NCBI GenBank assembly: GCA_944362545.1
Contig: CALVTJ010000002.1
Coordinates: 120,317 to 184,316 of the forward strand
Length of the DNA stretch: 64,000 nt
Source: an uncultured Clostridia bacterium
GTDB lineage: Bacteria; Bacillota; Clostridia; Christensenellales; UBA1242
Direction of reading: 5' to 3'
Below are positions 5,406 to 61,928 of the stretch, one piece after another. The translations under genes and the position numbers were made by a program. Under the pieces are notes generated by a model that was not told the origin of the DNA, ran no database searches, and saw nothing but the letters and a program-made list of their open reading frames with translations. Within the stretch, counting starts at the first letter, position 1. Each line of letters begins with the position of its first letter.

Positions 5406-5472
5406 AAAAAATTGAAATTTTATGTTTAATTTCATTTTTTGTGGCAATGATTGTTGCATGGAGGGGAGGAAA

Positions 5473-36341: not shown

Positions 36342-36343
36342 TT

Positions 36344-39691: not shown

Positions 39692-39806
39692 AGATTTTGT
39701 GCTGTCATTTTATGTCTTGTGGGGAAGGTAAAGTTGCCTTGGAAAAAGTTTGGAAAAGATTTCTATTTTGCGCTTTTGTTGCATAAATAACATTAAGGAG
39801 TTTGAT

Positions 39807-40463
39807 GTGGAAAATATCTCAAAAATTGTTTTGTCACAAGCAAGCGGAGAAAAAATAGGATATGTGTTGGATGTGGTGATTGATTTTCAAACCTTTCAAA
39901 TTACAGGATATTATGTGGTGGAAGAGGAAACAGAGAATGAATTGTTTTTGAAAAGTTCGGACATTGTTGCTGTGTCAGAATTTGTGGTGGTGATTGATGA
40001 TGAAGCAAACCTTGAATTTTCGCCCGTTCGCACAAAAACTTTGATTGGCAGATGTGTTTTTGATGACAAGGGAGTGTTTTTTGGACATGTCATAGGCATG
40101 GAATTTCACAGGAATAAATTGGTAAAAATATTAACTGATAGATGTGAAATCTTGACCAAACAGGTTGCAAAAATTTCCAACGATATTGTTTTTGTACAGT
40201 TTAAGAAAAAACGTAAGGACGTTCAAAAAAGAACATTTCCAAAAGTATCAAGCGAAAATGTGGTGACTATTCAAAGTTTGCAAAAACCAGAGAAGGTGAC
40301 ACTTGCGACCTCTTTTTATGTTGGAAAGGTTGTGAGTGAGGACATCATTGGCTATAACAGCGAAAGGATAATCTCAAAAGGACAGATTATCTCTCGAAGT
40401 GTGGTTGATAAAGCAAAAAAGCATAATAGATTAAATCAACTCTTTTTTGCAATAAAAAGATAA
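39807..40463 (+). CDS. PRC-barrel domain protein
   Basis: 218 residues from GTG 39807, which has AAGGAG (39795-39800) 6 nt upstream. The ATG two bases earlier is out of frame, and the frame from 39750 lacks a site. Two PRC-barrel-like repeats are visible: residues ~5-75 (VLSQASGEKIGYVLDVVID, ending SSDIVAVSEFVVVI) and ~80-145 (LIGRCVFDDKGVFFGHVIGM, ending QVAKISNDIVFVQF). A lysine-rich linker and a C-terminal part (YVGKVVSEDIIGYNSERIIS) follow. PRC-barrels bind RNA or proteins, as in RimM and photosynthetic reaction centres. Small Firmicutes members have no agreed role. There is no signal peptide, so it is cytoplasmic. Confidence 0.7.
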   Translation: MENISKIVLSQASGEKIGYVLDVVIDFQTFQITGYYVVEEETENELFLKSSDIVAVSEFVVVIDDEANLEFSPVRTKTLIGRCVFDDKGVFFGHVIGMEFHRNKLVKILTDRCEILTKQVAKISNDIVFVQFKKKRKDVQKRTFPKVSSENVVTIQSLQKPEKVTLATSFYVGKVVSEDIIGYNSERIISKGQIISRSVVDKAKKHNRLNQLFFAIKR

Positions 40464-40842
40464 AATCAAAAAATAATTAAAAAATATTAAAAAATGCATT
40501 AAAATTTAATTTTTTTTGCATTATTTTGATTTATTTTTGCATTTTTCGTGTTTTTTATATTTATTTTTCTCGTTGTTTTTATCATTGTTATTATGGTATT
40601 GTTGTCAATATTTTAATAAAAATAGATTATTTTTTTTCTTTTTCCTTTCAATTTTTTTGAAAAAATTGTGAGAAAAAAATATATTTTATATATTTATATG
40701 AATTTTTATTTGTTTTTTGTTTGTATTTTTGATGTCATTTGTAGTATCATAATAACAGATTGAAGTGTGCCTAGTTTTTTCTGGAAAGTGTTATGTTAAG
40801 CGTTGGTGTGCTTCTTTGAAATCTTTGAGCGGGAAGGAAATT
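40464..40842 (+). other. AT-rich intergenic region before the VirB4-like gene
   Basis: 379 bases with no credible gene. AATGCA (40493-40498) and TGCATT (40517-40522) flank a T-rich run and may terminate the PRC-barrel gene. The rest to ~40740 is nearly pure A/T tracts, much like the region before the first giant gene. A weak promoter (TTGTAT 40721-40726, 18 bp, TATCAT 40745-40750) and the ribosome binding site GGAAGGAA (40832-40839) complete it. Confidence 0.5.
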
Positions 40843-43548
40843 ATGGTTAGAGTTATTCCAAGGAAAACAAAAGTTAAATCGGAGTTTGTCCGAGGTGTGA
40901 CAGGTCTTGATATTGCACTGGGGATTGTTTTTGTTGCGATCGCCATTATTTTGTTTTTGGCAAACTTTGAACTTCACATTTGGATTGCTATAGCATGGGT
41001 CATCATTTCAATTGCGATGTTTTTGAAACTTGCCGATGACACACGCTTTTACAACACTCTTGTCTTTTTGATTCGCTATTCTATGCAGAAGAAAAAATTT
41101 AGCAAGGGCGATGGCGAAAAGAAAAAGTCTGACATCAACGAAATGATTGCATATGAGGGCATCTATCAGGACAGATTTATAAGTTTTGGCGAATACTATG
41201 CACAGGTCTTGGAAATTCAGCCAATGTTTTTTACTCTCTTGACAGAATATTATCAAGACAATGTCATCGAAAGTTTTGCAAATGCCTTGAGAAGAATTGC
41301 TGCTGACCAAACTTGTTCGATTATCAAAATCAGCAAACCTATGATTTTGGATAACTATATACATAATGAAAATCATAAATATGATGTGCTTTACGACATG
41401 CAATATGATGGACAAATCACACAGGCCGAAATTGATGCGCGTGCGCCAATTTTTGAAGAGCGTGTGTCACTCTATGAATTTATGAATCGCCAGTCCAAAA
41501 TTTTTAAAGATCACTTCTATGTTGTGGTTTATGGCAAGGATATGGAAATTTTGGAAAATACCACAAATGGTATGATAAATGCTATGGCTTCTTCGCTCAA
41601 TCCAATCATTGCCACTAAACTTCAAGGGACAGATCTTGTTGTATTCTTGAAAGCAAACTTGACAAAAGATTTGGATGAACGTGATCTGGAAATCATTCCA
41701 ATGGCTGATTACATATCATGGGCAACGCCAAACAAAATCAAATTCAACATTGCAAGATATTTTTTGGATGACCAATGCTATCGCTGTTTCAGTTTGACTG
41801 ACTATCCTTTGCAGGTGGGGAATGCTTGGGGGGCGCAGTTCTTCCTTTTGGACAGAACAAAAACTGTGATGAAGTTTACACCGATGCCAAAATATGATTC
41901 CGAAAAACAGATTGACCGTGCTATTATGGAAATGGAATCAAAACTTGCAAGGTCAGGTAGAAGCTCGACACAGATTGAACTTCAAACTCACCTTCAAACT
42001 TTGAGAGATTTGTTGGCTTCTCTTAAAAACAACAACCAGCAACTCTTCAATGTCAACACTTATATTGTTGCCGAAGATGCTGCAAAAAAGGATGTTAGGG
42101 CAATGTTGAAACAACAGGGTTTTAAATATTCTGAGTTGTTTTCTCGTCAAATCGATGGTTTTATTTCATCAAATATTTCTAAGCGCGATATCTTTAAAAA
42201 TAACATGAGGGGAATCCCAACTTCTACGCTTGCTGCCACATTCCCGTTCATCTCAAACGCATTGCAAGATAAAAATGGAATTTATTTGGGAGATAATGAG
42301 TATCCAGTGTTTGTTGACTTTTTTAAGCGTGACCGAGAAAGAGTTAACTCCAATATGATGGTTATTGGAAAATCTGGTTCTGGAAAAAGTTATGCTACAA
42401 AAACACTTTTGACAAACCTTGCCGCTGACAACTGCAAAATTTTTATTTTGGACCCGGAAAATGAATATCAAGATTTGACAAGAAATCTGGGTGGTAAATT
42501 TATTGATGTTGGTTCTTCCACTCACGGAATTATCAATCCGTTCCATGTTATTTCATCGTTGGAGGCATCAGAAGATGATGAAGATGAAGAGGATGAGGAG
42601 GAAGAATATGATGCTTTTGGCAGGAAGATTGTTAAACAGAAAATAATTGAAAAGAAGATTGATGACTCCTTCCCTCAACACTTGCAGTTTTTGGAACAGT
42701 TTTTTAGGGTTATTTTGGAGGGTATCAACGCGGATGCGTTTGAAGTGCTAAATTCGCTTATCATTGATATGTATAAAGAGAAACACATCGATTACAAGAC
42801 CGATTTGGCGAGGTTGAAACCGGAAGATTATCCAACATTTGATGATTTGTATAATTTGATTTTGAAGAGAATTAAAACAGCAAGGGATGACTTTTCTCTT
42901 CGAAACCTTATGACCGTGGAAACTTATATCAAAAAGTTTGCCGCCGGCGGAAGAAACAGTGCTCTCTGGAATGGTCCAACTTCCATTGAAACAAACGAAA
43001 ATTTTGTCACATTCAACTTTCAATCTTTGGTTGCTGGAAACAACCCAACTATCACAAACGCACAGATGCTTTTGGTGTTTAGATATCTTAACAATGAAAT
43101 CATTAACAACAAGGACTTTAACAAAAAATATCGCAAGAACAGGAAGATTATTGTTGCGGTCGATGAAGCGCACATCTTCATCAATCCAAAATATCCAATC
43201 GCTTTGGACTTTATGGCGCAGATGGCAAAGCGTATCAGAAAGTATGGTGGTATGCTTATCATCATCACGCAGAACATTTCCGACTTTGTGGGAACAGAAG
43301 AAATCAGACGTCAATCAACGGCGGTTATCAACGCGTGTCAATATTCTCTAATCTTCTCGTTAGCGCCCGCGGATATCAATGACCTTGTCAACCTTTATGA
43401 AAAGTCTGGCGGTATCAATGAAGAAGAGCAAAACTCCATTGTCACAGCCGGCATTGGACAGGCGTTTTTAATAACAAGTCCTACTGCTCGAACAACGGTG
43501 CAAATTGTGGCACAGGACTATGTGAAACAACTTTTTGAAGGAAGATAA
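40843..43548 (+). CDS. VirB4-family ATPase with PrgI-like N-terminal domain
   Basis: 901 residues from ATG 40843 (MVRVIPRKTKVKSEF), behind GGAAGGAA. Residues ~1-90 have two membrane segments and the look of a PrgI subunit (IPRK start, GVTGLDIALGIV, then a second hydrophobic stretch). The remainder is a VirB4/TraE-type ATPase. Walker A is GKSGSGKSYAT near residue 508, followed by IFILDPENEYQDL. Walker B is VAVDEAHIF near residue 773, and IIITQNISDF follows. A highly acidic insertion (DDEDEEDEEEEYD) lies near residues 580-595. VirB4 powers type IV secretion and conjugative transfer. No other conjugation gene, relaxase or integrase is in the window. The giant lipoprotein gene starts 80 bp downstream and may share the transcript. 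Confidence 0.85.
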   Translation: MVRVIPRKTKVKSEFVRGVTGLDIALGIVFVAIAIILFLANFELHIWIAIAWVIISIAMFLKLADDTRFYNTLVFLIRYSMQKKKFSKGDGEKKKSDINEMIAYEGIYQDRFISFGEYYAQVLEIQPMFFTLLTEYYQDNVIESFANALRRIAADQTCSIIKISKPMILDNYIHNENHKYDVLYDMQYDGQITQAEIDARAPIFEERVSLYEFMNRQSKIFKDHFYVVVYGKDMEILENTTNGMINAMASSLNPIIATKLQGTDLVVFLKANLTKDLDERDLEIIPMADYISWATPNKIKFNIARYFLDDQCYRCFSLTDYPLQVGNAWGAQFFLLDRTKTVMKFTPMPKYDSEKQIDRAIMEMESKLARSGRSSTQIELQTHLQTLRDLLASLKNNNQQLFNVNTYIVAEDAAKKDVRAMLKQQGFKYSELFSRQIDGFISSNISKRDIFKNNMRGIPTSTLAATFPFISNALQDKNGIYLGDNEYPVFVDFFKRDRERVNSNMMVIGKSGSGKSYATKTLLTNLAADNCKIFILDPENEYQDLTRNLGGKFIDVGSSTHGIINPFHVISSLEASEDDEDEEDEEEEYDAFGRKIVKQKIIEKKIDDSFPQHLQFLEQFFRVILEGINADAFEVLNSLIIDMYKEKHIDYKTDLARLKPEDYPTFDDLYNLILKRIKTARDDFSLRNLMTVETYIKKFAAGGRNSALWNGPTSIETNENFVTFNFQSLVAGNNPTITNAQMLLVFRYLNNEIINNKDFNKKYRKNRKIIVAVDEAHIFINPKYPIALDFMAQMAKRIRKYGGMLIIITQNISDFVGTEEIRRQSTAVINACQYSLIFSLAPADINDLVNLYEKSGGINEEEQNSIVTAGIGQAFLITSPTARTTVQIVAQDYVKQLFEGR

Positions 43549-43628
43549 TATTCAATATTTTTGCTTTTAAAATTGTTCAAAACAGGTTGCTTTAAAAGAA
43601 AAATCTCGTTTGAGTTAAAAGGAAATCT

Positions 43629-46600
43629 ATGACAAAAGTTTTTAGAAACATCTTTATATCTTTGATTGGTGTGTTTGCATTTTTGTTTGCAGGTTTCTTT
43701 TTTGTTGGCTGTGGCGTTGATTACAGCAAAATTTCGCTCACTTGCGACAAACCAAGCATTGAACTTGATGTAGGAGAAAGTGAAGATATAACCTTTACAA
43801 TTGAAGGCTTTCAAAGGGGGTTCAGCAATCAGGTTCAGGTCAATCCACGTGCTGATGGGCAGACAGCAGTGTTTGAAGTTTCACAGCCATTCTATGTTGG
43901 AAACAATCAAATTAGAGTGACTGTGACAGGATTAGCAGGTGGACATGGGCAGTTGCAGGTGGTCACACTGGAAGGGAGAAAAGAATGTGTTGTTGATGTT
44001 AGAATTCAACAATATTCTCATAGTGTGGAATATAACAACAATATTGCATATGTCTCAAACAAAACCTCTTTTGTGCCATCATCTGACCTTTTTACCTTTG
44101 ACAATAACACAACTTACACCGATTTGTCATATTACTATTTGCAAGTGCGACAGGATATAAATTTCAACACTTACACACTCTCTTCTCTGGATTTGGAGAG
44201 TGGAAATGCCATATTTTCAAATGGTGTGAATACGTTGGATGCAAATATTACACAATTTGATGAAGCAATTTTGAAAAATCAAGAGGATGGCAATCATTTG
44301 ATGCTATCACTTGATGGACAGTTGACGGAAGTTGATTTGTCGAGTCAATTTACATTTTTGGCAGTTTATAACTATTCAGTGGACAATCCTTCCTATGAAA
44401 ACATTGTCTATGATGTTGCTTCAGTTTATGTTTTGCCGGATATTGATGTCAATGTGACAGGCGGTTATGTTGATATAAACACGGGAGCAGTTGATTTTCA
44501 ACCACTTGATAGTGATGAAATTGTCATTGTCCCAAATAACACAAATATGTTGCAATTTTTGCTCCGTGTGCAGATGAATGATGCCATTTCAGGCTCACCA
44601 TTAAAACTTCTCAAGACACAATCGAATGAATTTGTCGATGTGGATTTTTATGACTACATTGAGGAAACAGAACCGGAAGGCACGGTGTTTTACTTAAAAA
44701 TTTCTCAAAATTCACAGGTGCAGACAAGCACAAATGTTTCGCTGGAAATTTTCTATGACATTGCACAGGAAATTGATGATGAAAGTGTCAATGTCAAAAA
44801 AGATTTTAGGGTAAACATTGAAGTTGCTCCAACTGCTTTGACAGTCAATGGAACTTCAGAGCCGGAAAGGTTTGTGCTTTACAACTATTATAGATTTCCT
44901 GAATTTGGTTGGAATGAAATCTTGGTTGATGTCATTTCAGGATATGCTACTTCCCCAAATTATGAAGGAGTATATTTCACATTTGATGACACTTATCTTG
45001 ATTTAATCTACAACAACACCACAGTTGTGTCTGGAGACAGCAGACTTTATACCGATTTGAGCACTCCTTTCTATATAAGAGGAAAGTATGGCACACATCA
45101 AATTGCCGATTTGGTGGTGACTGTGCACCTTAAGAGTGATATTTTGCAAAACGCAGATGAGTTGACTCTTGATTTACATTGCAGAATTATTGCAGGAGCA
45201 ACTGCAGTTTCTGTTTCAGAAAATTATGATGAACCATATTTTTATCTGGATTACGATGCCGGAACTGTGGATTTTGATGGACAGATTTATGCTGACCAAG
45301 CCTTTCAATCGGTCTCCTACAGATTTTTAAGTGGCGTGGATGTTTTGCAAATTACATCAAATCAAACTCAACCTTACACTCAAATTGATAATAGGTATTA
45401 TCTTAACCTGTCATTGACTCCGCGTCTTGCTGGTGTGGGCATTTACAGAATTTATCTTGACAACGGAATGCCGATTGAACTTACCTTCAATGTGACAAGA
45501 ACATTAAAGCCAGAGACTACTTCAATTCAACTCACAAATGAGGGGAATGAGGCAGTCACAGAGGCAACTTACAGCACAAGTGATCATGGAGAATTTCAAG
45601 ACACTTTAAACATTGAAATTTTAAATCCATCATCTCAAACTGATATTTCTTTTGGCAATGTAGCACAATTGACAATAACAGCAAATGTCAACGCCGATTC
45701 TATCACATATGTTCCAAATATGGGTGGCTATGTGACAGTGGCACGAATAAACAATGTCTATCGCATTTCCACTTTGGCAAATGGACAGGTGCAAATCACA
45801 TTCACTTTGTCCGGAATTGAAGTGTATGATTTTAGAACAACTGCAACGGAATTGGAACTTTATGTCAATGTAAGTTCTTATTCTCTTGTGGATGAGTTTT
45901 ATATGCGCAACGGTGACAATTATGCACTCAACAACATTGTCTATTATGGCAGTGGAAATTTGCAGGATAGTGATGAATCTGTGACATTGACACCGGTTGT
46001 GAACAATGTAAATTCTTACAATTTCTACAAATATTATTTCAGACAAGATGCGTTTGTGGATATTTTTGCCAATGCTTTGGAAAGCAATGAAGAAGGCAGA
46101 TACACATACGACATTTTGGATGACCAAGTTTACAGCGAACTTGTCTTTTCAAGATACAATGCAAGTTTCATTTACTTTTATGCACAGGTAATTTACTCAC
46201 AAAATGGCAACAACACCTACTCCACCGTGCCAACTGTGACTGAAGTGACTGTGACAAGAAGTCAAATTGTGGATGGAAGACCGCAAAGAGAAGAAAAAGT
46301 TATCATGCTTGTCTTGAATGATGGTTTGATGTTTTATGCGGATGATTTTGAATATGTCGACATTGATGCAGGTGGCGCTGTTTCGGCAACCTACACGGTG
46401 GACTTTTCAAACATCTTTTCCATTGATGTCTATGGCTCGTTTGACATGGAAAACTTTACATACACAAACAATTACCAGGCTATTTACAATCTTTCACTGA
46501 ACGCAAATCTGAGACAGAGAAATTCTACAAAGAGATATGACTGCAGAATTCAGTCAAGCCTTTATCAATCGGTGGAGAGTATTTCTCTTGCAACGAGTTT

Positions 46601-49600
46601 AACGCAACTTAATTTTTCTAACGATACTTTAAGCTTCAATATCGGTGTCTATACTTATCCAACAACATCAACAAACAAAAATGTTAGGGTAGAATTTGTT
46701 CGCACAAACGGAAATCCATATGTAAATATGGTGACTTGGACAATTGACACATCGGAAAGTGATATAGGAATTTACACAATTGACTTGTCTTGTGAGGGTT
46801 TTTACAACCAATATCGTGACTCTATCACAACTATTGATGACTACTTGACAGGAAGGATTTATATTTATCCTGCCGAATGGGGTGATTCTTACTCATCCAT
46901 AAGTGCTGATTTGCATCCTATTGTGATTGATGTGCAATACCGCAATGGTTCGCGTGCAAATCCTTATCTTTTGGAGACCGTTGAAGATGTTTTAGGCATC
47001 AATGCAAATCAAACCACATTGAGAAGTCATTATGAAATCTCCACGGTTATTGATATGTCAACAGTGCAGAATTTTACACCTATTGGTATCTTGCGAGAAA
47101 ACGGCGAAAATGTGCTTTATGGATTTAGTGGTTCGATTGTCGGCACAAGTTCACAGGCGGCAATTACCAACATTGCAGTTTCTGCAAACAACTTTTCCGC
47201 TGTGGTCAATAAGACAATGGCAGGTGGAGATGTTGACATTTTATACACCGGTTTTATTGCACAACTCAACTCTGCATATAATCTTGATGCAAATGACCCA
47301 AACTCACTGCTCTTCACCCCGACCATTGAAAATGTGTCATTCTCTGGAGAATTTAATCTTGACTCATCTGTGATGACTTATGCCAGCATTTTGACTTCTG
47401 TCAACAATGGAAAACTTGTCAATGTTGGAGTGAGAGTTGGCAGTTCACAAATTAGCATGACTCAAAGTCAAACAGTTCTCTATTTTGGTGCTGTTTCTGC
47501 TGTAAATTATGGAACGATTTCACAGGACTTCACAAAATATGATGGCACAGGGTATGTTTTCAAAAATTATAACGACAAAACGCGTTATGAAGATGAAAAT
47601 GGCAATTATTATGTCGTTGATGACAACAATCAGCACATCTTGGTTGATAGTGAAAACTATGCAATTGATGAAAATGGCAATCGTTTGAAATTTGATGAAT
47701 ATGGCGAGCTCTTGTCCGAAAACAAAGATTACACCGGTCAAAACAGCAAGAATTTGGCATATTTTGAAGGGGTTGTCAACATAAATGCGGGGGCTTCAAA
47801 TGTTTATGCGGGGGGAATTGCCGGTGCCTCAAGCGGTGTTGTGCAGAGGATTTCTTCTTCAACTCTGAAGATGTATGGCTACTCGGCTTATTCGGCATAC
47901 ACTCTCATCACAATTTCAGGGACAAGCAGTTTTACCAATTTTGACAGGGTTTATGTGGGTGGTGCTGTGGGTGCCTTGACTTACAACTCCGGCTTCTCAA
48001 TCTTTAACGAAATTTTGGTCGACACCGGCACTCCAAGGTCGGGAAACACCGTTCAAAATCTTTTGGTAGGTGGAGAAATTGACACATCAGGCACAGTTGA
48101 CTATGATGATGCAGTCGGTGGAATTGTTGGGTTTGCTGACACACAAAACATATCTCAAATTGATGTCTTGCAAAACACATCGCGTGTCTTTTTGAGAGCA
48201 AATGAATATGTCGGCGGAATCATGGGATATGACACTTACAGTGTAAACTATAGTGTTTATACCAATTTTGGCACAGAAAATGTCATTGAAGCGGTGGATG
48301 ATGGGAGAAACAATTTCTACGCTTCCGCAATAATCAAGTTTAAAACTTTGACAGACTTGCCAGAGGACACAGATATTTCTAGACTTGCATTCTATGCTGT
48401 GGGAAATTCTACTCGCAACGCAAGAAATTACAGTCCTTTTGTCTTTGGGGCATATTCCTATCTTATAAGGAATCTGCTTTCTGTTGACAAAGACTATATT
48501 GTTATCACAAATTCTGCATCCGTAAATGATTATTTTGGTGATTACATCATCCTAAATACCACAACTGATGGTTCTTTGCATATTGATTCTTCTTATACAT
48601 TTACTTTCAAAGAAGTGGAACTCAACCTTGCGGAAAGTGAGTTTGCAATGTCACAGTTAGATGGAAATGATGTTGATGCTGGTGTTTACTTTATGTATTA
48701 TTTCTCTGTGGAGGGTAGAGTGGATGGTGGCAGTGACACAAATGCTCAGGATGCCATTGAAGATTTGAATTTTGTAAATCCAAACTCCAATTTCTATCCG
48801 TTTTCACTTGGGAACACAGATGTCAATATTTCCTCTTCAAGTTCAAACATTTTGTCCGTGGATGTAAACGGCAATTTGACCGTCAAAAGCACAGGACTTG
48901 CCACAATCACATTGAACAGCATTTTGAATGTGGTTAGATCTCGAGTTATTTATATCTATATTGTCAACTTCTTTGACAAGGATGTTTCATCTTCAATTTT
49001 CTATACTAGCCAAAACATCAATGGAGTTAATATCACAGATGACAGCATATTGAATATTTATGGCAATTCAAATACCAATGTTCACGTTGTGCCGACTTAT
49101 AATTTGACTTTGGGAGTGACTACAAATGGTGATGAATTTTATGTCACCAATGGCGGCGTATTGAATTTTAATAATGTCAATTACAATCTTTCAAAAAACA
49201 CTCAAATCAAAGTGACATCACCTGAAAAAATTGACTATGTTCCTACTCGTGACACAGCAGTTGTGGCGGGGAAAGAATATTTTGTATTTGATGAAGAAAG
49301 TGGAAGATATGTTTTGGTGGAAAATCCAACAGATGATGACATTGCGACATATTTTGAACAGGATTATTTCTCATCCGTGCAATTAAATGGGCAGACAATT
49401 ATCTTTTACAAAAATTCAAATGCCAATCCACAAGAGAATGATAGAGATAATTATTGTTTAACTCCGGTGCTTCAAGTGACAATTCAAATTGGAACAGAAA
49501 GATACACATTTGTCTATGAACTTGAAAATTCAAAAATTGATGTTGGTGTTTCTTACAGAGATGCAGCAACATCTATAAGAACTAATTCCACATATCATTC

Positions 49601-52600
49601 TATGCAAACTAACAACAATTTCTCTGACACTGTGACTGTTATTTCGACAAATGAAGAAGAACTTGTGTTCTATCAAATTTTCAATTCAAATGGGGAACTT
49701 GTGCAAGACAGACTGCCTGCAGATTTGACACAATTTGATACGGCACAAAACAGAGAAAATGCTTGGCTTGATTATATTAACACCATGCACAGAGATGATT
49801 TGTTCAATCTCCGCCTATCGCGAATTGGAGGGAATGTTTTTGACCTTGATTGTCAAATCTACACAGCGGGAGACAAGTTCTTGAACAGATTTGAAGAGAA
49901 CATATATGGAGAATATACCGTTCATCTTTATTGCAGTGAACTTGAAACTGGTGTTTCATATTCTTTTAAAATTTTGCTTGATGAAGCGGAAGTAAATTAT
50001 ATCAGCATAAACAACTATTCAAACTTCAACGATGTTTCTGTGCCGGATGAGATTGTTGTTCCTTCTCAACGCGGAATGTTGGAAATTACTGTTGACCCTG
50101 TTGAAGCGGTGTTTGATGAATTTGTTATTTCAAACAATGGACTAAACTATCAAGAGGGTGCTACGGAAGCGACATTTACATTTGCCTACGAAAAGATAAA
50201 TGCGGATGCAAGCAAAGAGTTTGTGCTTGCTCAAAACTTTGGGCGTTATGAAAATGGTAAACTTCATTTCACATATCAAGAGATGACAGAATTTTTCGCA
50301 CAACTCAATCAAAACTTTGAAAATTTGGGTGAAAATTCATCGGTGGCATACACCGGCAAAGTTTACATTTCCTATTATATGCCATCATATAATGTGGATG
50401 ATGAGGTGGCTGTTGGCTTTGATGTCAATGTCACATATGGCAATGAAGGTCAACTTTCAATGCCTTCGACAATTTTGCTTCAAACTCATCTTGGCAGTTT
50501 TGCACAACTTACCTTTGCAAACAAAGAAGAGGTTAATGGGGCTTATTTTGTGGCACGCGGATTGTCTTATCAGATGAACCTTGATTATTACGGTTTCAGT
50601 GAGGATCAAATTGAAATTTCTTCCACAAACAGTTTTGTTGCAAATGTGGAGAAGGTCGGCGATGTTTATATGCTGAATGTGACATCCGAAAGCATAAATT
50701 ACACAGGTGATGTTGGATATATGGTTCAAATAACAACTGTGGCAACAAAGACTGTGGATAATGTGCTTGTGACTGCAACCGACACATTGACAATTTATGT
50801 CATGGAATATGTGATGAATTACTCATATGTGCCTGGTGTCAATGAGGATATTGTTTTGGGCATGGAAGATGGAGTAATTTCAGATGCAATTGGTAATCCT
50901 TACACTCTTCAATTCAATATTCGTGCATTTTTGGAATATGACCAGACAAATGCTGTTGTAAACACAGAAGTTGAAAATTTCATCAACAGTATGACAAGCA
51001 ACATCACATGGACTGTTTATCTAAATGACCAACCAACTGTACTAGAACAAGGCAAAGAAATAAGGACTGATTTCTATGCAATTTCATCGTTTGTTGTCAC
51101 GCCACTTCGCATTTACGAGGCAGAAAGCGATATTTATTACTTCTCGGCAAGTGCAAATTACACTATAAGAAATGGCATTTATGCATACAGTGAAATTGCA
51201 ACAAACGCCTATCCGATTTATACAGAATTTTCCTTTGATGTTCATCAACAAAGCACAGAAGACAGTCCAATTCCTGTGGAAGATTATGATGACTTTTTGG
51301 ATATGCAGGATGGAGAATGGTATATTTTGCTTAACAACATCGTCATTCCAAGCACAGAATATGCCGAGAGCAATGGAATCGATCAATTTGTGCCAATTGA
51401 CAGTCAAATTGCCGGACTTGATGGAAATGGTTATCAGTTGCAGATGAGCGGAACTTACACCGTTTCAGGAGCAAGTTCGTTTGGTATTTTTGAGAGTGTG
51501 GCAGATGACACAATATTGCAAAATATCTCAATTGCTTTGACAAGCGATGTTGTGATTAGAATTGATTCAACAACATTTAGCGTTGGACTTTTGACACCAC
51601 AAAACAATGGAATTATCACAAATTGTGAAGTGTTTGGCGTAATGGGTGATGAAGGTTTGTCTGTGGTTTGTCTTTCAAGTGCAACGAACTCTTATGTAGC
51701 CGGTCTTGTGGCTAATAATACGGGCTACATCACAAATTCTCGCTCAAAAATCAATATTTTTAGCAATGTCAACCTTTCTGGTTTTGTTGGACAAAACAGT
51801 GGAATAATCGCAAGTTCTTATTATTCAGAGGCATCACTTTTGAATGAAACAAACACCACAAGTGAATATACCGCAGGGTTTGTCATTGAAAACAGCGGAG
51901 AGATTTACACATCATATGTCAGCGGGAGAATGTCTAACAACAGAATGTTTTATGACCAAGAGGACAACACAATCCAATCTAGCAACAACATCTCCGGCTT
52001 TGTTTACACAAACAGTGGGAGTGTTCAAGATTGTTATTCAAATATTCAACTCAGACAGAGTGGTGCATTCGCATCCGGATTTGTCTTTGAAAACGCAGGA
52101 CTTATCGAAAGATGTTTCTCAACAAGCGTTTTGGAAAGTGAACAAACTTCAAACTATGGTTTTGCAAGATATAACAATGTCACAGAAGATGCGGGCAATG
52201 GAATTTATGACTGTTATTACCTTGAGGACAGTGACATCAACAATGGTGGTGAGATTAGAAGTGACCTTGACAGTGTCAATGTAAGCATCGGTCAAATTGT
52301 GCTCAATCAGTTTACCGAAATTACACCTCTTACCTATGATGAGTTTGGTGAAGATTATTTGGATGAATATTTCTCATCTTATGTCGTTGCTCAGGGCAGA
52401 GATATAAATTCTGTGTGGTTCTTCAACACAGACTCACAAAACCTGTCAAACTTCAATGGCTCTATCTTTAATGTTGGAAGAATTGAACTTGTTGCTCCAA
52501 ACATTGTGGCAGATTCTCAAAGACAACTGGAAAGGATTGAAACAGTTGTAGATGAGGCAACCGGAGCAACTTCGGCAAGATATATCTATTCTTACACTAC

Positions 52601-54317
52601 GACAAGCTCTCCACTTGGAAGTGTTTATAATCCAATTCTTATCAGTGATGCTGAGACAATGGAAAATTATGTCCTGCAAGAAAACAACAATGCAAATTAC
52701 AATTACAGTTATTACAGACTTATTGCAGATATTGATTATGGCGATTATATCTATAACAGTTCCATTTTCAGGACACGCTTTATGGGCTATCTTGAAGGGA
52801 ACTTCATGACCATCTCCGGAATGAGTTTGGTTTCAAGCGAATCAATGTCTTCTGCTGGTTTGTTTGCTCAGGTTGGAAGCAGTTCTATTCTTGACGCTGT
52901 AGGAACAGTTATGAACTTCACATTTGTTCCACAGGCAGTGTCATTTGCAAATACCAATGTTGTTGGTGCTCTTGCTGGAATTGTTGACAATGGCAAAATC
53001 TATAATGTCACTCTTGACAGAGATTCTTCCTCTCAAATAATTGTGGTCGGAAACAACATTGTCGGCGGTGCAGTTGGTTTGACACTTGGAAGATATGATA
53101 TTCAAGATCTATATTCAAATTACAGCGCCAAGGCCAGACATCAATCTGTGGCTGGAGAAAATAATTTCAACTTAAATGTGCCTGAATATTCGGCTTATTC
53201 ATTTGCAGGTTCGTTGATTGGTGCGGCAAGTGGAATGGGAGATATTTACAACACTGTCACTGACCAAGTTGTCTCCGTTTTGGGTGACAAGGCAGGACTT
53301 GTGTTTGGTTTGATTGATGAAAATGCCAATGTTTCAAAGGTATTGATTGAAATGCAAGATGGTATGATGGTCAATGCGTATTCTTATGGCGGACTTGTGG
53401 TTGGAGAATCAAAAGGACAAGTCAGTGATGTCCAAATAGTTGGCACAGAAAGTGCGTTTACCGAATTTAGGAAGATTCCTTCTATGCCAATCGCACTTGG
53501 CGGATATGCTGGACTTGTCAATGGCGGAAGAATCTCTGATCTTGAGATGACTCAGTCGATTTCTATCAGTACACAAAGCGCAAACACAGGTGTTTCATAT
53601 CTGGGTGGTGTTGCCGGAATGTTGAGTAGTTCTACCACACTTTCAAACATCACTGTTTCGGCAGAACTTACAGGATTTGCCTATGTCGGTGGTGTTGTTG
53701 GGGCACTCAGTTTGCAGTCGAGTGTGGCTTACTTTGAGAATCTTGACATCAATGTGACTGCAAATGTTATCGGCCACCGAATGCAAGAAGTGGGTATTGG
53801 TGGTGTTGTTGGAATTTCTGATGAAAGTTCCGTTGTTGATATCACAAGCACGATTATTGATAGTGTTGATGAAGATGGTGCAAACATTTATAGACATAAT
53901 CAAATCAATCTTGTTGCAAATGCCAATGTCTATATATATGGGACAGAATTGCACATCTATGTTGGTGGAATTGTTGGATCTAATATTAGTTTGGCGACTC
54001 ACGCGGTGTCATGGACAGACATGAGTGTGACAAGCGGAGCAGAAGGTATTGTGGCAAATGATATGTCAAATCCATCGGAACTTGCCACAACAAGTGCATT
54101 TGTGACAATAACAGAGGAGGATGAAAATCCAACCCTTCAGATTGAACGAATTGATGGTTATCAAACAATTTATGCGACAGCAATCAGTGTGGACAACGTG
54201 AGATATTATTGCAATGTGTCCTTTACCACTGCAAGACCGGAGGAAGGTTCGGAATCGACAATGACTTTGAGACTGAATCTTTACGGCAGTCCATACATTC
54301 CATCAGATGAAGATTAG
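43629..54317 (+). CDS. Giant modular surface lipoprotein 2 (3562 aa)
   Basis: A 10.7-kb frame from ATG 43629, with AAAGGAAA upstream. The signal peptide ends in lipobox FVGC (lipidated Cys28). Residues ~30-1100 are Ig-like beta domains (early motif SIELDVGESEDITFTI). Beta-helix modules start near 1110 (ANPYLLETVEDVLGI), 2547 (VEDYDDFLDMQDGEWYIL, then GLDGNGYQL) and 3001 (NPILISDAETMENYVL), followed by GGIVG/GGAVG turns of GLUG type. Acidic repeats near 1320-1370 (DENGNYYVVDDNNQ, DENGNRLKFDEYG) could bind calcium. A BIG2-like domain lies near 1743. A motif near 1870 (TAVVAGKEYFVFDEESGRY) resembles a repeat seen in gut phage and bacterial surface proteins. The C-terminus is acidic (SPYIPSDED), with no cell-wall anchor. 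It has the same design as the 6606-aa protein. It lies directly behind the VirB4-like gene. Confidence 0.85.
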   Translation: MTKVFRNIFISLIGVFAFLFAGFFFVGCGVDYSKISLTCDKPSIELDVGESEDITFTIEGFQRGFSNQVQVNPRADGQTAVFEVSQPFYVGNNQIRVTVTGLAGGHGQLQVVTLEGRKECVVDVRIQQYSHSVEYNNNIAYVSNKTSFVPSSDLFTFDNNTTYTDLSYYYLQVRQDINFNTYTLSSLDLESGNAIFSNGVNTLDANITQFDEAILKNQEDGNHLMLSLDGQLTEVDLSSQFTFLAVYNYSVDNPSYENIVYDVASVYVLPDIDVNVTGGYVDINTGAVDFQPLDSDEIVIVPNNTNMLQFLLRVQMNDAISGSPLKLLKTQSNEFVDVDFYDYIEETEPEGTVFYLKISQNSQVQTSTNVSLEIFYDIAQEIDDESVNVKKDFRVNIEVAPTALTVNGTSEPERFVLYNYYRFPEFGWNEILVDVISGYATSPNYEGVYFTFDDTYLDLIYNNTTVVSGDSRLYTDLSTPFYIRGKYGTHQIADLVVTVHLKSDILQNADELTLDLHCRIIAGATAVSVSENYDEPYFYLDYDAGTVDFDGQIYADQAFQSVSYRFLSGVDVLQITSNQTQPYTQIDNRYYLNLSLTPRLAGVGIYRIYLDNGMPIELTFNVTRTLKPETTSIQLTNEGNEAVTEATYSTSDHGEFQDTLNIEILNPSSQTDISFGNVAQLTITANVNADSITYVPNMGGYVTVARINNVYRISTLANGQVQITFTLSGIEVYDFRTTATELELYVNVSSYSLVDEFYMRNGDNYALNNIVYYGSGNLQDSDESVTLTPVVNNVNSYNFYKYYFRQDAFVDIFANALESNEEGRYTYDILDDQVYSELVFSRYNASFIYFYAQVIYSQNGNNTYSTVPTVTEVTVTRSQIVDGRPQREEKVIMLVLNDGLMFYADDFEYVDIDAGGAVSATYTVDFSNIFSIDVYGSFDMENFTYTNNYQAIYNLSLNANLRQRNSTKRYDCRIQSSLYQSVESISLATSLTQLNFSNDTLSFNIGVYTYPTTSTNKNVRVEFVRTNGNPYVNMVTWTIDTSESDIGIYTIDLSCEGFYNQYRDSITTIDDYLTGRIYIYPAEWGDSYSSISADLHPIVIDVQYRNGSRANPYLLETVEDVLGINANQTTLRSHYEISTVIDMSTVQNFTPIGILRENGENVLYGFSGSIVGTSSQAAITNIAVSANNFSAVVNKTMAGGDVDILYTGFIAQLNSAYNLDANDPNSLLFTPTIENVSFSGEFNLDSSVMTYASILTSVNNGKLVNVGVRVGSSQISMTQSQTVLYFGAVSAVNYGTISQDFTKYDGTGYVFKNYNDKTRYEDENGNYYVVDDNNQHILVDSENYAIDENGNRLKFDEYGELLSENKDYTGQNSKNLAYFEGVVNINAGASNVYAGGIAGASSGVVQRISSSTLKMYGYSAYSAYTLITISGTSSFTNFDRVYVGGAVGALTYNSGFSIFNEILVDTGTPRSGNTVQNLLVGGEIDTSGTVDYDDAVGGIVGFADTQNISQIDVLQNTSRVFLRANEYVGGIMGYDTYSVNYSVYTNFGTENVIEAVDDGRNNFYASAIIKFKTLTDLPEDTDISRLAFYAVGNSTRNARNYSPFVFGAYSYLIRNLLSVDKDYIVITNSASVNDYFGDYIILNTTTDGSLHIDSSYTFTFKEVELNLAESEFAMSQLDGNDVDAGVYFMYYFSVEGRVDGGSDTNAQDAIEDLNFVNPNSNFYPFSLGNTDVNISSSSSNILSVDVNGNLTVKSTGLATITLNSILNVVRSRVIYIYIVNFFDKDVSSSIFYTSQNINGVNITDDSILNIYGNSNTNVHVVPTYNLTLGVTTNGDEFYVTNGGVLNFNNVNYNLSKNTQIKVTSPEKIDYVPTRDTAVVAGKEYFVFDEESGRYVLVENPTDDDIATYFEQDYFSSVQLNGQTIIFYKNSNANPQENDRDNYCLTPVLQVTIQIGTERYTFVYELENSKIDVGVSYRDAATSIRTNSTYHSMQTNNNFSDTVTVISTNEEELVFYQIFNSNGELVQDRLPADLTQFDTAQNRENAWLDYINTMHRDDLFNLRLSRIGGNVFDLDCQIYTAGDKFLNRFEENIYGEYTVHLYCSELETGVSYSFKILLDEAEVNYISINNYSNFNDVSVPDEIVVPSQRGMLEITVDPVEAVFDEFVISNNGLNYQEGATEATFTFAYEKINADASKEFVLAQNFGRYENGKLHFTYQEMTEFFAQLNQNFENLGENSSVAYTGKVYISYYMPSYNVDDEVAVGFDVNVTYGNEGQLSMPSTILLQTHLGSFAQLTFANKEEVNGAYFVARGLSYQMNLDYYGFSEDQIEISSTNSFVANVEKVGDVYMLNVTSESINYTGDVGYMVQITTVATKTVDNVLVTATDTLTIYVMEYVMNYSYVPGVNEDIVLGMEDGVISDAIGNPYTLQFNIRAFLEYDQTNAVVNTEVENFINSMTSNITWTVYLNDQPTVLEQGKEIRTDFYAISSFVVTPLRIYEAESDIYYFSASANYTIRNGIYAYSEIATNAYPIYTEFSFDVHQQSTEDSPIPVEDYDDFLDMQDGEWYILLNNIVIPSTEYAESNGIDQFVPIDSQIAGLDGNGYQLQMSGTYTVSGASSFGIFESVADDTILQNISIALTSDVVIRIDSTTFSVGLLTPQNNGIITNCEVFGVMGDEGLSVVCLSSATNSYVAGLVANNTGYITNSRSKINIFSNVNLSGFVGQNSGIIASSYYSEASLLNETNTTSEYTAGFVIENSGEIYTSYVSGRMSNNRMFYDQEDNTIQSSNNISGFVYTNSGSVQDCYSNIQLRQSGAFASGFVFENAGLIERCFSTSVLESEQTSNYGFARYNNVTEDAGNGIYDCYYLEDSDINNGGEIRSDLDSVNVSIGQIVLNQFTEITPLTYDEFGEDYLDEYFSSYVVAQGRDINSVWFFNTDSQNLSNFNGSIFNVGRIELVAPNIVADSQRQLERIETVVDEATGATSARYIYSYTTTSSPLGSVYNPILISDAETMENYVLQENNNANYNYSYYRLIADIDYGDYIYNSSIFRTRFMGYLEGNFMTISGMSLVSSESMSSAGLFAQVGSSSILDAVGTVMNFTFVPQAVSFANTNVVGALAGIVDNGKIYNVTLDRDSSSQIIVVGNNIVGGAVGLTLGRYDIQDLYSNYSAKARHQSVAGENNFNLNVPEYSAYSFAGSLIGAASGMGDIYNTVTDQVVSVLGDKAGLVFGLIDENANVSKVLIEMQDGMMVNAYSYGGLVVGESKGQVSDVQIVGTESAFTEFRKIPSMPIALGGYAGLVNGGRISDLEMTQSISISTQSANTGVSYLGGVAGMLSSSTTLSNITVSAELTGFAYVGGVVGALSLQSSVAYFENLDINVTANVIGHRMQEVGIGGVVGISDESSVVDITSTIIDSVDEDGANIYRHNQINLVANANVYIYGTELHIYVGGIVGSNISLATHAVSWTDMSVTSGAEGIVANDMSNPSELATTSAFVTITEEDENPTLQIERIDGYQTIYATAISVDNVRYYCNVSFTTARPEEGSESTMTLRLNLYGSPYIPSDED

Positions 54318-54617: not shown

Positions 54618-57600
54618 ATGTCTAATATCATGAAAAAACAAAAATTCGGTAAAACTGAAAGATATACCTTTGCTCAACTCAAAGATTATATCGATATTCC
54701 ACCTCTTCTTGAAATCCAAAGAAACTCTTATAAAGATTTCATAGAACATGGCATCAAGGAAGTGCTTGATGAATTTTCTCCTATCGTGGATTATTCAGGG
54801 AAGGCAAAACTCTATTTTCTTGATGTTGTCATGGATAAAGAACCTAAATATTCCAAGAAAGAGTGCAAGAGAAGAAGTGCAACTTATTCCATTCCACTCA
54901 ATGTCAAGACACGTTTTGTTGTTGAAGAAACTGGTCAGGCGGTTGAAGATGTGGTTTACCTTGGCGACATCCCTTATATGACAGATGATTGTTCTTTCAT
55001 TTTTAATGGTGTTGAAAGAGTTGTTGTAAATCAAATCATCAAATCGCCAAACTTTTATCTTTTGCTCGACAAACCACATGATATGTCCACTTTGCACGGA
55101 CAAATTATTCCAAAGCGTGGAATGTATATTGAATTTGAACAAGGTGCAAATGAAGTTTTGAAGGTTGTGCTTGACAGAAGACACAAGATTACACTTGGAT
55201 TGTTCCTCAAATGCTTTGGTTATTCTGCAGAAGAAATTTCCAATCTTTTTGGTGGACACAGACTTGTGAAGAATGTGCTTGAAAAAGAAACTCAAAACAC
55301 ACAAGAGGAAGCATTGCTTGAATTTGCAAGAAAGACCAGACCTGCTGATGTTCCATCCGCAGAAACAACAAGAAACTATCTCAACCTTTGGTTCTTCTCT
55401 GACCAATGGTATAACCTTTCAAGAGTTGGAAGATACAATCTCAACAAGAAATTTTCCATTGAAAGAAGAGTTGTTGGACATATTTTGTCAAGAGATGTCA
55501 TATCTCCAGATGGCGAGATTATTGCAAAAGCAGGGCAGGAAGCAACACCAGAAATCGCTCACAACATCAAAGCGAGTGGTGTAAACGAAGTTTGGGTTCA
55601 ACTTTCTGACAAAGAGTATCTCATGAGAGGGAACAACAGAGTTAGACTTTCAGATGTTTTCCCATGCGATGAGAAATCTCTCGGAATTTTGGAAGAGGTT
55701 TATTATCCTGTTTTGGCACAACTTCTCAAAGATAACAAGACCAAAGAAAAGAGAATTCAAGCCATCAAAGAACATGCCAAAGATTTGATGATAACAACTT
55801 TGACTATGGATGATATTTTGGCTGCTATCAGCATGTATCTTGATGGACTTGAAGGAATTGCAAAACCTGACAAAATTGAACATTTGTCAAACAAGAGAAT
55901 TGCCACTGTTGGTGAACTTTTCTATGACCATTTCCGTTCTGGTGTGACAAAACTTGTTGCAAATGTCAGAGAGACATTGCAAGGAAAAGAACTTTCTGAA
56001 GTCACGCCAAGACAAATTGTCAATCCAAAGGCTATCAACAGGGCCTTGCGTGACTTTGTGGCTTCTTCACAGTTGTCACAACTTATGGACCAAGTCAATC
56101 CACTTTCAGGAATTACACAAAAGCGCCGCGTTTCCGCTGTTGGTCCTGGAGGAATCAAAAAGGAAAGAGCAGATGCTGAAGTGCGTGATATTCACTATAC
56201 AAACTATGGAAGAATCTGTCCTATTGAAACCCCAGAAGGTCAGGCTATTGGGCTTGTAAACACTCTCACAAGTTATGCAAAAGTTGATGAATATGGCTTC
56301 CTTGAAACACCTTACAGAAAGGTGGACAAAGAAACAGGAAAGGTTTCTGACAAATGCGAATATTATATGGCAGACATCGAAGACACTGCTTATATCGCAC
56401 AGGCGACAGAACCTCTTGACAGTGAAGGCAGATTTGTAAACAAGAGAGTTATTTGCCGTCACAAAGACTATGCGATTGAAGTGCCAGCAAGTCAAGTTGA
56501 CCTTGTTGATGCTTCTCCAAGACAATTTATTTCTGTTGCTACATCACTCATTCCGTTTGTCAATTCAAACGAAGCAAACAGAGCGTTGATGGGTGCAAAC
56601 ATGCAGAGACAGGCTGTGCCTCTTCTTCGTCCAGAGGCTCCAATTGTTGGAACAGGAATGGAAGCAACTGTCGCTCATGACTGCGGATATACTCAACTTG
56701 CCAGAGAAGATGGCGAAGTGACATATGTCAGCGCAGATGAAGTGCGTGTAAAGAATGTTAAGGGAGAAACCGACATCTATTCACTTACAAAGTTTGACAA
56801 AACAAACGATGAAACTTGCTTCAATCAAAAGCCTTGCGTTGTTAAGGGTGAAAAGGTAAAGAAGGGAGAAGTTATCATTGATGGTTATTCCACAGAAAAT
56901 GGCGAACTTGCACTTGGAAAGAATGTGCTTGTTGGTTATATGAACTGGGAAGGTTATAACTACGAAGATGCTATTCTTATCAATGAAAGATTGGTAAAAG
57001 ATGATGTCTTTACATCAATTTGTTTAAAAGTTGAAGAAATTAAATGCCGAACAACAAAACTTGGCGATGAACAAATCACAAGAGATATTCCAAATCTTGG
57101 CGAAGAAGCCCTCAAAAACCTTGATGAAAACGGAATCATTAGAATTGGTGCGGAAGTGACAACAGGAGATATTCTTGTCGGCAAAGTGACACCAAAGGGA
57201 GAGACAGAACTTTCGCCAGAAGAGAGATTGCTTCGTGCTATCTTTGGAGAAAAGGCAAGAGAAGTTCGTGACACATCTCTTCGTGTTCAACACGGCAAAG
57301 GTGGTGTGGTTGTTGATGTTCAAGTGTTTAGCAGAAAGAACAAGGATGAACTTGAACCTGGCGTAAACGAACTTGTCAAAGTTTATATTGCTCAAAAGAG
57401 AAAACTTTCTGTTGGCGACAAGATGAGCGGACGTTATGGAAACAAAGGCTGTATTTCAATTGTTATGCCAGAAGCCGATATGCCATTCATGGCAAATGGA
57501 CGTCCACTTGACATTGTGCTCAATCCGTTGGGAGTTCCATCTCGTATGAATTTGGGACAGGTTTTGGAAGTGCATTTGGGACTTGTTGCTGGTTCTCTTG

Positions 57601-58343
57601 GATGGAAGGTTGCGACTCCAGATTTTGATGGAGCAGATGCTGAAAAGATTCAACAACTCTTCATCGAGAATAATTTCCCGAAAGATGGAAAAGTTCAACT
57701 TTATGATGGAAGAACAGGCGAACCTTTTGAGAACAAAACCACAATTGGTATTGAATATATGCTCAAACTTAACCACATGGTTGACAGCAAGATTCACGCT
57801 CGTTCAATTGGACCTTACTCACTTATCACTCAACAACCACTTGGCGGAAAGGCTCTTATGGGTGGACAAAGATTTGGTGAAATGGAAGTTTGGGCTTTGG
57901 AAGCGTATGGAGCATCTCATGTTTTGCAGGAAATGCTCACTGTGAAATCGGATGATGTTGTGGGCAGAGTTAAGACTTTTGAAGCGATTGTCAAAGGACA
58001 ACCAATTCCAGAACCAGGAATTCCAGAAAGCTTCAAGGTTTTGGTAAAAGAACTGCAAGCTCTTGCACTTGATGTCAAGATTTTGACTGAAAACAATGAA
58101 GAAATTGATCTTCCAGAACTTTCTCAAGATGAACAAGACAACAAGGTTGGAATTGAAAACGATGTTGAGAAAGATTTGAAGAATGTCACAATCGACATTG
58201 ATGACATGATTGCAGACTCAAACACAAAAGATGAAGAAGAAAAGTCTGATGTTGAGAGAGAAATTGAAGAAGAAACTTCAAATAACAACAACGGACTTGA
58301 TGATATTGATTTGTTTGATGATTTTGGAGATTTTGACGAATAA
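54618..58343 (+). CDS. rpoB: DNA-directed RNA polymerase beta subunit
   Basis: 1241 residues from ATG 54618, with GAGGAG upstream (54603-54606 core). Beta-subunit landmarks appear in order: the N-terminal lobe LLEIQRNSYKDF, the rifampicin pocket region SQLSQLMDQVNPLSGITQKR, the GRICPIETPEGQAIGLV block, GYNYEDAILINERL, KMSGRYGNKGCIS and the C-terminal GGKALMGGQRFGEMEVWALE. After the core comes a long acidic tail (residues ~1180-1241) ending DLFDDFGDFDE. This is the catalytic subunit that binds DNA, RNA and, with beta', forms the active site. The residues S-Q-L-S-Q-L-M-D-Q in the rifampicin region look wild type. rpoC follows by 48 bp, so the two are one operon, but rplJ and rplL are missing upstream. 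Confidence 0.99.
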   Translation: MSNIMKKQKFGKTERYTFAQLKDYIDIPPLLEIQRNSYKDFIEHGIKEVLDEFSPIVDYSGKAKLYFLDVVMDKEPKYSKKECKRRSATYSIPLNVKTRFVVEETGQAVEDVVYLGDIPYMTDDCSFIFNGVERVVVNQIIKSPNFYLLLDKPHDMSTLHGQIIPKRGMYIEFEQGANEVLKVVLDRRHKITLGLFLKCFGYSAEEISNLFGGHRLVKNVLEKETQNTQEEALLEFARKTRPADVPSAETTRNYLNLWFFSDQWYNLSRVGRYNLNKKFSIERRVVGHILSRDVISPDGEIIAKAGQEATPEIAHNIKASGVNEVWVQLSDKEYLMRGNNRVRLSDVFPCDEKSLGILEEVYYPVLAQLLKDNKTKEKRIQAIKEHAKDLMITTLTMDDILAAISMYLDGLEGIAKPDKIEHLSNKRIATVGELFYDHFRSGVTKLVANVRETLQGKELSEVTPRQIVNPKAINRALRDFVASSQLSQLMDQVNPLSGITQKRRVSAVGPGGIKKERADAEVRDIHYTNYGRICPIETPEGQAIGLVNTLTSYAKVDEYGFLETPYRKVDKETGKVSDKCEYYMADIEDTAYIAQATEPLDSEGRFVNKRVICRHKDYAIEVPASQVDLVDASPRQFISVATSLIPFVNSNEANRALMGANMQRQAVPLLRPEAPIVGTGMEATVAHDCGYTQLAREDGEVTYVSADEVRVKNVKGETDIYSLTKFDKTNDETCFNQKPCVVKGEKVKKGEVIIDGYSTENGELALGKNVLVGYMNWEGYNYEDAILINERLVKDDVFTSICLKVEEIKCRTTKLGDEQITRDIPNLGEEALKNLDENGIIRIGAEVTTGDILVGKVTPKGETELSPEERLLRAIFGEKAREVRDTSLRVQHGKGGVVVDVQVFSRKNKDELEPGVNELVKVYIAQKRKLSVGDKMSGRYGNKGCISIVMPEADMPFMANGRPLDIVLNPLGVPSRMNLGQVLEVHLGLVAGSLGWKVATPDFDGADAEKIQQLFIENNFPKDGKVQLYDGRTGEPFENKTTIGIEYMLKLNHMVDSKIHARSIGPYSLITQQPLGGKALMGGQRFGEMEVWALEAYGASHVLQEMLTVKSDDVVGRVKTFEAIVKGQPIPEPGIPESFKVLVKELQALALDVKILTENNEEIDLPELSQDEQDNKVGIENDVEKDLKNVTIDIDDMIADSNTKDEEEKSDVEREIEEETSNNNNGLDDIDLFDDFGDFDE

Positions 58344-61300: not shown

Positions 61301-61928
61301 TCTCATCACCATTGTCACAGGCGAAGGTGATGTAGATTATGAAGTTAAAAAACCGGCCGTTCTGAAGGTTAAAGATGGCGACACAGTTGAACCTGGCACA
61401 CAAATCACTGCCGGAGCAATCAATCCTGCCGACCTTCTTGTGACAAAGGGACTTAAAGGACTTCAACAATATTTGCTTACCGAAGTTATCTCTGTTTATC
61501 GCGGACAGGATGTTAAGGTAAATGACAAACACATTGAAATCATCATCAGACAGATGCTTAAAAAGGTCAAAATTGAAGATTCTGGAGATACTGATTTGCT
61601 CTCAGGTGAAATTGTTGACATCTCTCGTTGTGATGAAGAAAACGAAAGAGTTTTGAAAGCAGGTGGTAGACCTGCCATTGCAAGAAGAATTTTACTTGGC
61701 ATCACAAAGGCCGCTCTTTCAACAGAATCCTTCCTTTCTGCATCATCCTTCCAAGAGACATCAAGAGTTTTGACAGATGCGGCAATCAAAGGCAAAGTTG
61801 ACAATCTTGTTGGTATCAAAGAAAATGTTATCATTGGAAAATTGATTCCAGCAGGAACAGGACTTAAAAAATATAGAACAGTTGTGCCTGTCAAAGTTGA
61901 AGATGAAACAGAAACAAATGTTGGTTAA
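58392..61928 (+). CDS. rpoC: DNA-directed RNA polymerase beta' subunit
   Basis: 1178 residues from ATG 58392, behind AAGGGG. The N-terminal zinc ribbon has cysteines in CHCGKYKRI and [10 protein letters not shown]. The catalytic loop NADFDGDQM holds the three aspartates that bind the active-site magnesium. The lid/rudder region follows [18 protein letters not shown]. The second zinc site is [14 protein letters not shown], followed by the trigger-loop region [20 protein letters not shown]. The length and lack of large lineage insertions match Firmicutes. It is co-transcribed with rpoB. A strong terminator follows at 61936. Confidence 0.99.

Follow-up and report, generated by a model that had tools for sequence, protein, structure and literature searches.

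A VirB4-type ATPase beside a giant lipoprotein in UBA1242 Clostridia and its probable place in a resident type IV secretion system

Mycoplasma-type integrative conjugative elements (ICEs; MMCAP2 family) encode a type IV secretion system (T4SS) comprising the pilin Mbov_0395, the VirB6 protein Mbov_0396 and the VirB4 ATPase Mbov_0397, which carries a fused N-terminus. A chromosomal T4SS that is common in reduced-genome bacteria and mostly relaxase-free, with VirB2-like pilins, VirB3, VirB4, VirB6 and VirD4 amongst its parts, is described for Patescibacteria (Saccharibacteria) in the sections of PMC12102498 and PMC12857230 drawn on here; according to the same sections, VirB3 anchors VirB4 in the basal part of a complex that includes VirB6, and substrates are connected to the machine by coupling proteins. 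The sections of PMC12857230, a 2025 review, further state that one Patescibacteria species cannot survive on its host without the T4SS, that Patescibacteria alone among monoderms need a T4SS for growth on host cells, that VirB2 pilins are absent from Gram-positive T4SS except in Patescibacteria, and that the 89K T4SS of Streptococcus suis is a reported protein exporter. Here we analyze a VirB4-type ATPase gene and the giant lipoprotein gene that follows it in a stretch of 64,000 nucleotides (the window; contig CALVTJ010000002.1 of assembly GCA_944362545.1) from an uncultured member of UBA1242, a family of Clostridia portrayed as partner-dependent, with reduced genomes, and for which 'intercellular connections' have been suggested, in an account that leaves T4SS unmentioned (PMC12306168). 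In the open-licence PubMed Central literature, preprints excluded, we found no published account of a T4SS in this group. We propose, with a probability of roughly 0.78, that the gene encodes the VirB3-VirB4 energiser of a resident T4SS, descended from a Mycoplasma-ICE-like machine, domesticated, and probably used for contact-dependent transfer with partner cells.

The system shares with the Mycoplasma-type ICE the VirB4 with its fused N-terminus, a pilin recognised by the ICE pilin model in the genome from which the window comes (own genome) and, in a second genome of the same genus (G034), VirB6 proteins recognised by the ICE VirB6 models. Unlike in the ICE, the genes are scattered, the search of the own genome turned up no relaxase, and 58 of the 59 family genomes have VirB4. 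The likeness to the T4SS of Patescibacteria is one of description, and the host here is a member of the Clostridia. The streptococcal 89K system, also Gram-positive and located on a pathogenicity island, is likewise likened by description. The features on which the argument turns are the following.

40843..43548, + strand: VirB4-type ATPase of a probable resident T4SS, near the Mbov_0397 ICE type; 901 amino acids (aa) from the ATG
40843..41106, + strand: VirB3/PrgI-like membrane segment fused to the VirB4 N-terminus; predicted to contain two membrane helices, end estimated
42367..42390, + strand: Walker A motif GKSGSGKS, VirB4 residues 509-516
43162..43167, + strand: D774 E775, acidic pair of Walker B, unchanged in 30 relatives
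43549..43628, + strand: 80-bp gap between VirB4 and lipoprotein, with the ribosome-binding-like sequence AAAAGGAAA ahead of the lipoprotein gene
43629..54317, + strand: giant lipoprotein, 3562 aa, lipobox FVGC at residues 25-28 (Cys28); neighbours VirB4 only within the genus

The ATPase, for which an alternative GTG start is open at 40765, matches the P-loop domain of TraG in Pfam (P-loop_TraG, ~1e-18), and 30 relatives share the key residues of both Walker motifs without variation, S513 excepted. Over nearly its entire length (residues 5-898, model positions 3-893 of 894) it aligns to NF045975, the NCBIfam model of the Mbov_0397 ICE VirB4, with 586.8 bits, 3 bits short of the cut-off of 590; other family members score 596.2 (L066) and 576.2 (L070). 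The model for CD1110, from a conjugation family of Gram-positive elements (CD1110/CD1115), gives 158.6 bits, far under its cut-off of 325, and amongst solved structures the single match is that of the P-loop part to the VirB4-like ATPase 4ag5. As NF045975 spans the N-terminus, the fused segment belongs to the wider Mycoplasma-ICE VirB4 lineage. The fusion is present in all 19 VirB4 sequences aligned (three from other families, one from an ICE-like set), with I5, P6, K12, D23 and Y70 invariant, and PMC12102498 saw none in its Patescibacteria dataset. Two membrane helices are predicted within the N-terminal ~88 residues (21-41 and 46-60) in a low-confidence AlphaFold2 model (12 close sequences; mean predicted local distance difference test score 37.7). 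The earlier note on this DNA, made from the letters alone, had recognised a PrgI-like membrane domain here; the predicted membrane helices and the coverage by NF045975 agree with a fused membrane segment, while Pfam yields only VirB3 at an E-value of 0.2 and does not list PrgI, so that the putative 'PrgI/VirB3-like' identity is drawn from its position, its topology and the NCBIfam match. A second AAA_10 match in the own genome was considered as an extra VirB4 and rejected, as it is FtsK.

None of the 22 open reading frames (ORFs) of the window scanned with Pfam (uvrA in part, the lipoprotein as a whole; a 6606-aa ORF lay outside the scan) contains a VirD4, VirB6, relaxase or integrase domain, in agreement with the earlier note. 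Its description of the ATPase as 'lone', however, does not extend to the own genome (927 kb, 95% complete, 9 contigs), which encodes a VirD4 that passes the conju_CD1115 model of the CD1110/CD1115 family (G000:C1:124410-126410; 280 bits, cut-off 250), a VirB2-like pilin (G000:C2:91830-92252; 41.9 bits against NF045849, the Mbov_0395 pilin model, cut-off 40) and a T4SS-linked secreted giant of 2864 aa without a Pfam match (G000:C1:8419-17013, L159). Beside VirD4, three genes are kept in two species of the genus (L084:13401-15368 and L086:7441-9293); in the own genome (L084) they encode proteins of 187, 169 and 262 aa, the last with 6-7 membrane helices, without a Pfam match.

We searched for VirB4, VirD4, VirB6, the VirB2-like pilin, the secreted giant and the PF03432 relaxase in 59 family genomes of small-genome gut Clostridia (42 genera, 0.6-1.4 Mb each). 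VirB4 and VirB6-like proteins are each encoded in 58 of them, VirD4 and the pilin each in 56, and the secreted giant, mostly of 2.3-2.9 kaa, in 44. In many genera the genes form a common module, secreted giant - VirD4 <-> pilin - (lipoprotein-like gene) - VirB6 - VirB4 - large soluble protein - 80-aa protein, and an aldolase gene is frequently nearby. Taking the best places per genome, entered by hand, with second, ICE-like sets retained and 5 of the 56 pilin genomes (weak matches) omitted, 36 of the 57 genomes having both VirB4 and VirB6 show them no more than 5 kb apart, and 42 of 49 show the same for VirD4 and pilin; VirD4 is no more than 15 kb from VirB4 in 24 of 55 genomes and no more than 15 kb from the secreted giant in 29 of 44. 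A check of relatives for an ATPase inside fuller modules thus finds VirB4 beside VirB6, pilin and VirD4. In the window's genus the T4SS genes are dispersed among core genes; in the own genome pilin and VirB4 are ~69 kb apart on one contig, with VirD4 and the secreted giant on another.

The large soluble protein that follows VirB4 in other genera (~570-1730 aa; L048, L056, L057, L059, L076 and L080) gave no convincing match in a Pfam scan of these six, and the 80-aa protein family occurs after VirB4 in 12 loci. The two could possibly be a cargo and chaperone pair.

For the descent of VirB4 we built a tree of 67 rows and 883 columns by a quick method, excluding ORFs of up to 780 aa and taking support from the Shimodaira-Hasegawa-like approximate likelihood ratio test (SH-aLRT) only. 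The window's genus is monophyletic (18 rows, 100% SH-aLRT) and all nine other genus pairs form clades; 53 resident VirB4 rows group together (99%) apart from the ICE-type, and the family's three ICE-type VirB4s cluster with a VirB4 of another family (100%). When the window is compared with five relatives, the nonsynonymous divergence (dN) is 0.10-0.14 with saturated synonymous divergence (dS), and the closest pair has dN/dS values of 0.011/0.455. VirB4 is thus under strong purifying selection and is no decaying relic. Together with its presence across the family and its clade-wise tree, this agrees with the resident function that the earlier note had suggested from the core location.

That note saw a conjugation-type ATPase 80 bp before a 10.7-kb lipoprotein gene with no visible terminator between them and offered, as one idea, an ATPase dedicated to giant lipoproteins. 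The arrangement itself holds: both genes are intact, the second as a 3562-aa ORF, and a search of the + strand from 40400 to 44000 gave no terminator-like site. A Pfam scan of the whole lipoprotein found no domain. The lipoprotein gene directly follows VirB4 in all 18 loci of the genus, with a gap of at most 20 bp or a short overlap in 12, gap lengths depending on the start codon chosen for each locus. These loci are the window, L033-L044 and L147-L151; L033-L043 have no genus code and were counted in on the strength of 80-86% VirB4 identity to the window, where G034, coded as the same genus, has 69%, and the tree agrees. Outside the genus, none of 39 VirB4 loci (L045-L083, from 38 genomes, including one ICE-type copy, L072; some clipped at contig ends, and L068 without a downstream gene) has the lipoprotein after VirB4. 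A profile of the first 1112 positions of the lipoprotein matches 23 of the 59 family genomes, 21 of them outside the genus. From these 21 come nine full-length or near-full-length relatives (3112-3341 aa, 28-31% identity; 9 genomes, 6 other genera), the remaining two stretches fetched being G034, of the genus, and G036, with a different giant. None of the nine has VirB4 in its 16-20-kb stretch, and eight have a further very large ORF as the next gene upstream. In G031 the relative stands immediately before rpoB, as in the window, but without VirB4. Since relatives lie apart from VirB4, one of them before rpoB, VirB4 was probably relocated at the base of the genus, to a site ahead of the lipoprotein-rpoB-rpoC block. 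In view of the short gaps or overlaps in 12 of the 18 loci, a shared VirB4-lipoprotein transcript is plausible within the genus; such co-transcription would not show a dedicated assembly system, and the lipoprotein probably lies outside the core of the secretion machine. In the closest pair its dN/dS values are 0.057/0.67. That the lipoprotein and the T4SS-linked secreted giant share an ancestor was rejected, as BLAST gave no match between the groups (the own genome's secreted giant being outside this comparison). The window's 6606-aa protein, encoded at 7230-27050 (+), is a second giant surface protein candidate with 25% identity to the lipoprotein over ~870 aa in BLAST and a relative of at least 4400 aa in L134.

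The resident T4SS would consist of VirB4, VirD4, one or more large VirB6 proteins, the VirB2-like pilin and, in most genomes, the secreted giant. The fused VirB3 domain would anchor VirB4 at the membrane, where the ATPase could power assembly of the VirB6 channel and the pilin, so that the machine would form a pilus or channel through which macromolecules are transferred on contact with other cells. The secreted giant, perhaps the actual surface part of this secretion system, might serve as a contact or cell-wall part that touches another cell; VirD4 might deliver or take up substrates, and the cargo might include the large soluble proteins encoded after VirB4 in other genera. Proteins, DNA or metabolites might in this way pass to or from partner cells, as has been suggested for Patescibacteria epibionts. 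DNA conjugation is improbable, the own genome having yielded no relaxase. The lipoprotein, joined to VirB4 by the presumed rearrangement at the genus base, would be a co-located and perhaps co-transcribed surface protein.

PF03432 gave no match in the own genome; as it was the only relaxase model run genome-wide, the absence of a relaxase is provisional. In the family it scores above cut-off in one of the 59 genomes, with four weaker matches. Two family genomes (L111 in G012:C7 and L112 in G026:C2) hold a second, ICE-like set with a MobP2-like relaxase (94.0 and 93.3 bits, cut-off 200), VirD4, a secreted protein of 1.5 kaa, pilin, VirB6 and VirB4. A profile built from these two relaxases, run on 1321 ORFs from 104 loci, matched the two themselves and one 17.5-bit fragment in G010. 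An order-wide VirB4 search of 151 genomes (91 of them without a match) gave matches in 8 family genomes and 32 genomes of other families, nine of the latter with a full-length or near-full-length VirB4. In the eight loci fetched of these nine, VirB6 lies near VirB4 in every case, a large secreted protein of the type of the ICE-like sets is present in all eight, and VirD4 lies in five of the eight stretches. These loci look like conjugation modules, no relaxase being shown in them.

Several observations weigh against a resident T4SS. No VirB6 was found in the own assembly, the sole miss among the 59 genomes, and the machine could therefore be incomplete here. Across 41 genomes of the window's genus VirB6 was found in 38, the misses being the own genome, G231 and G234, and in G034 three tandem VirB6-like genes of 741-838 aa, matching the same NCBIfam VirB6 models as the Mycoplasma ICE, sit near a contig end (L106:7936-15118, G034:C7); as the tandem lies in such a place, the miss in the own genome might be an assembly gap. 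PF03432 failed to flag the MobP2-like relaxase of G026:C2, which weakens the relaxase negative, and the MobP2-like profile is also silent on the eight conjugation-type loci of other families, so that its silence says little. In the VirB4 tree the rows of G021, G039 and G057 find no resolved place, and a long-branch warning attaches to the rows from other families. Secretion, pili and cell contact, moreover, are here predictions from genes. As separate observations, tandem VirB6 copies recur within the genus, and in G021, G039 and G057, of three genera (L066, L065 and L073, respectively), VirB6-like proteins of ~1800 aa and more flank VirB4, which branches apart there.

The dedicated system of the earlier note, in which VirB4 would be paired with the giant lipoprotein and power its export, its assembly at the surface or its remodelling, can draw on the unbroken, mostly tight adjacency in the genus and on the purifying selection seen on both genes in the closest pair. 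We nevertheless regard it as highly improbable: the adjacency ends at the genus border, the lipoprotein relatives in 6 other genera sit away from VirB4, and the constant companions of VirB4 are instead VirB6, pilin and VirD4. Lipoproteins, besides, are usually exported via Sec and anchored via Lgt/Lsp. The same adjacency could alternatively reflect recruitment of the lipoprotein, in this genus only, as a surface accessory (an adhesin) of the T4SS that is co-regulated with VirB4. Four family loci do have a lipoprotein-like gene between pilin and VirB6, and many modules place a secreted giant by VirD4, yet the own genome already holds such a T4SS-linked giant, of a different family, which may fill this role, and lipoprotein relatives occur without a link to VirB4; we therefore consider this recruitment unlikely.

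That the locus belongs to an ICE, decayed or still mobile, would fit the ICE proteins behind its nearest named models, the second, relaxase-bearing sets of some family members and the provisional nature of the relaxase negative. An intact gene that is near-universal in the 59 genomes, spread among hflX, rpoB and other core genes and kept by purifying selection makes such an element very unlikely. The remaining candidate is an apparatus that imports DNA for repair or for the salvage of nucleotides, comparable to archaeal Ced/Ted. Reduced genomes such as those of UBA1242 need nucleotides (PMC12306168), the own genome has a ComF-like gene, and VirB4 and VirD4 match CedD/CedB weakly (1e-7; 0.06), but matches this weak are expected for any VirB4/HerA-type ATPase, and we judge import to be a rather improbable function. 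The ComF-like gene itself (double zinc ribbon and phosphoribosyltransferase; L107:17677-18447, G000:C2) is a hint of DNA uptake functions. The resident, domesticated T4SS thus remains our preferred reading. A bolder version of it, in which the Mycoplasma-ICE-type machine with its pilins and VirB3-VirB4 fusion became a permanent partner-contact organelle throughout the family, a second case beside Patescibacteria of a T4SS domesticated for host-dependent life, with the genus lipoprotein wired into the VirB4 operon as a surface adhesin, we put forward tentatively, as a possibility with the odds against it.

What appears to be new is a near-universal T4SS in reduced-genome Clostridia, dispersed in this genus and apparently domesticated; the underlying kind of machine is already known. 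A pilin-bearing T4SS without a relaxase match in the own genome occurs in almost every genome searched of a Clostridia family unrelated to Patescibacteria, and this family, together with the NCBIfam pilin-like ICE model, may qualify the statement on Gram-positive VirB2 in the sections of PMC12857230 drawn on here. Should the partner contact prove true, the T4SS would offer a tangible candidate for the machinery behind the 'intercellular connections' proposed for UBA1242 (PMC12306168), and partner dependence becomes a testable question.

The surroundings of the locus are core genes, as the earlier note had read them, with hflX upstream of VirB4 and rpoB and rpoC downstream of the lipoprotein:

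39750..40463, + strand: PRC-barrel-like protein upstream of VirB4, its position kept in the genus (PRC E-value 0.0053, below cut-off)
54618-58343, + strand: rpoB, flanking the lipoprotein gene
58392-61928, + strand: rpoC, after rpoB

The window also encodes a PF01116 aldolase, which conflicts with the loss of fructose-bisphosphate aldolase given for UBA1242 (PMC12306168). An M23 peptidase lies at 5422-6030, for which no link to the T4SS was found, and two RadC-like paralogues, at 27060-27800 (+) and 35610-36347 (-), flank the uvrB-uvrA region.

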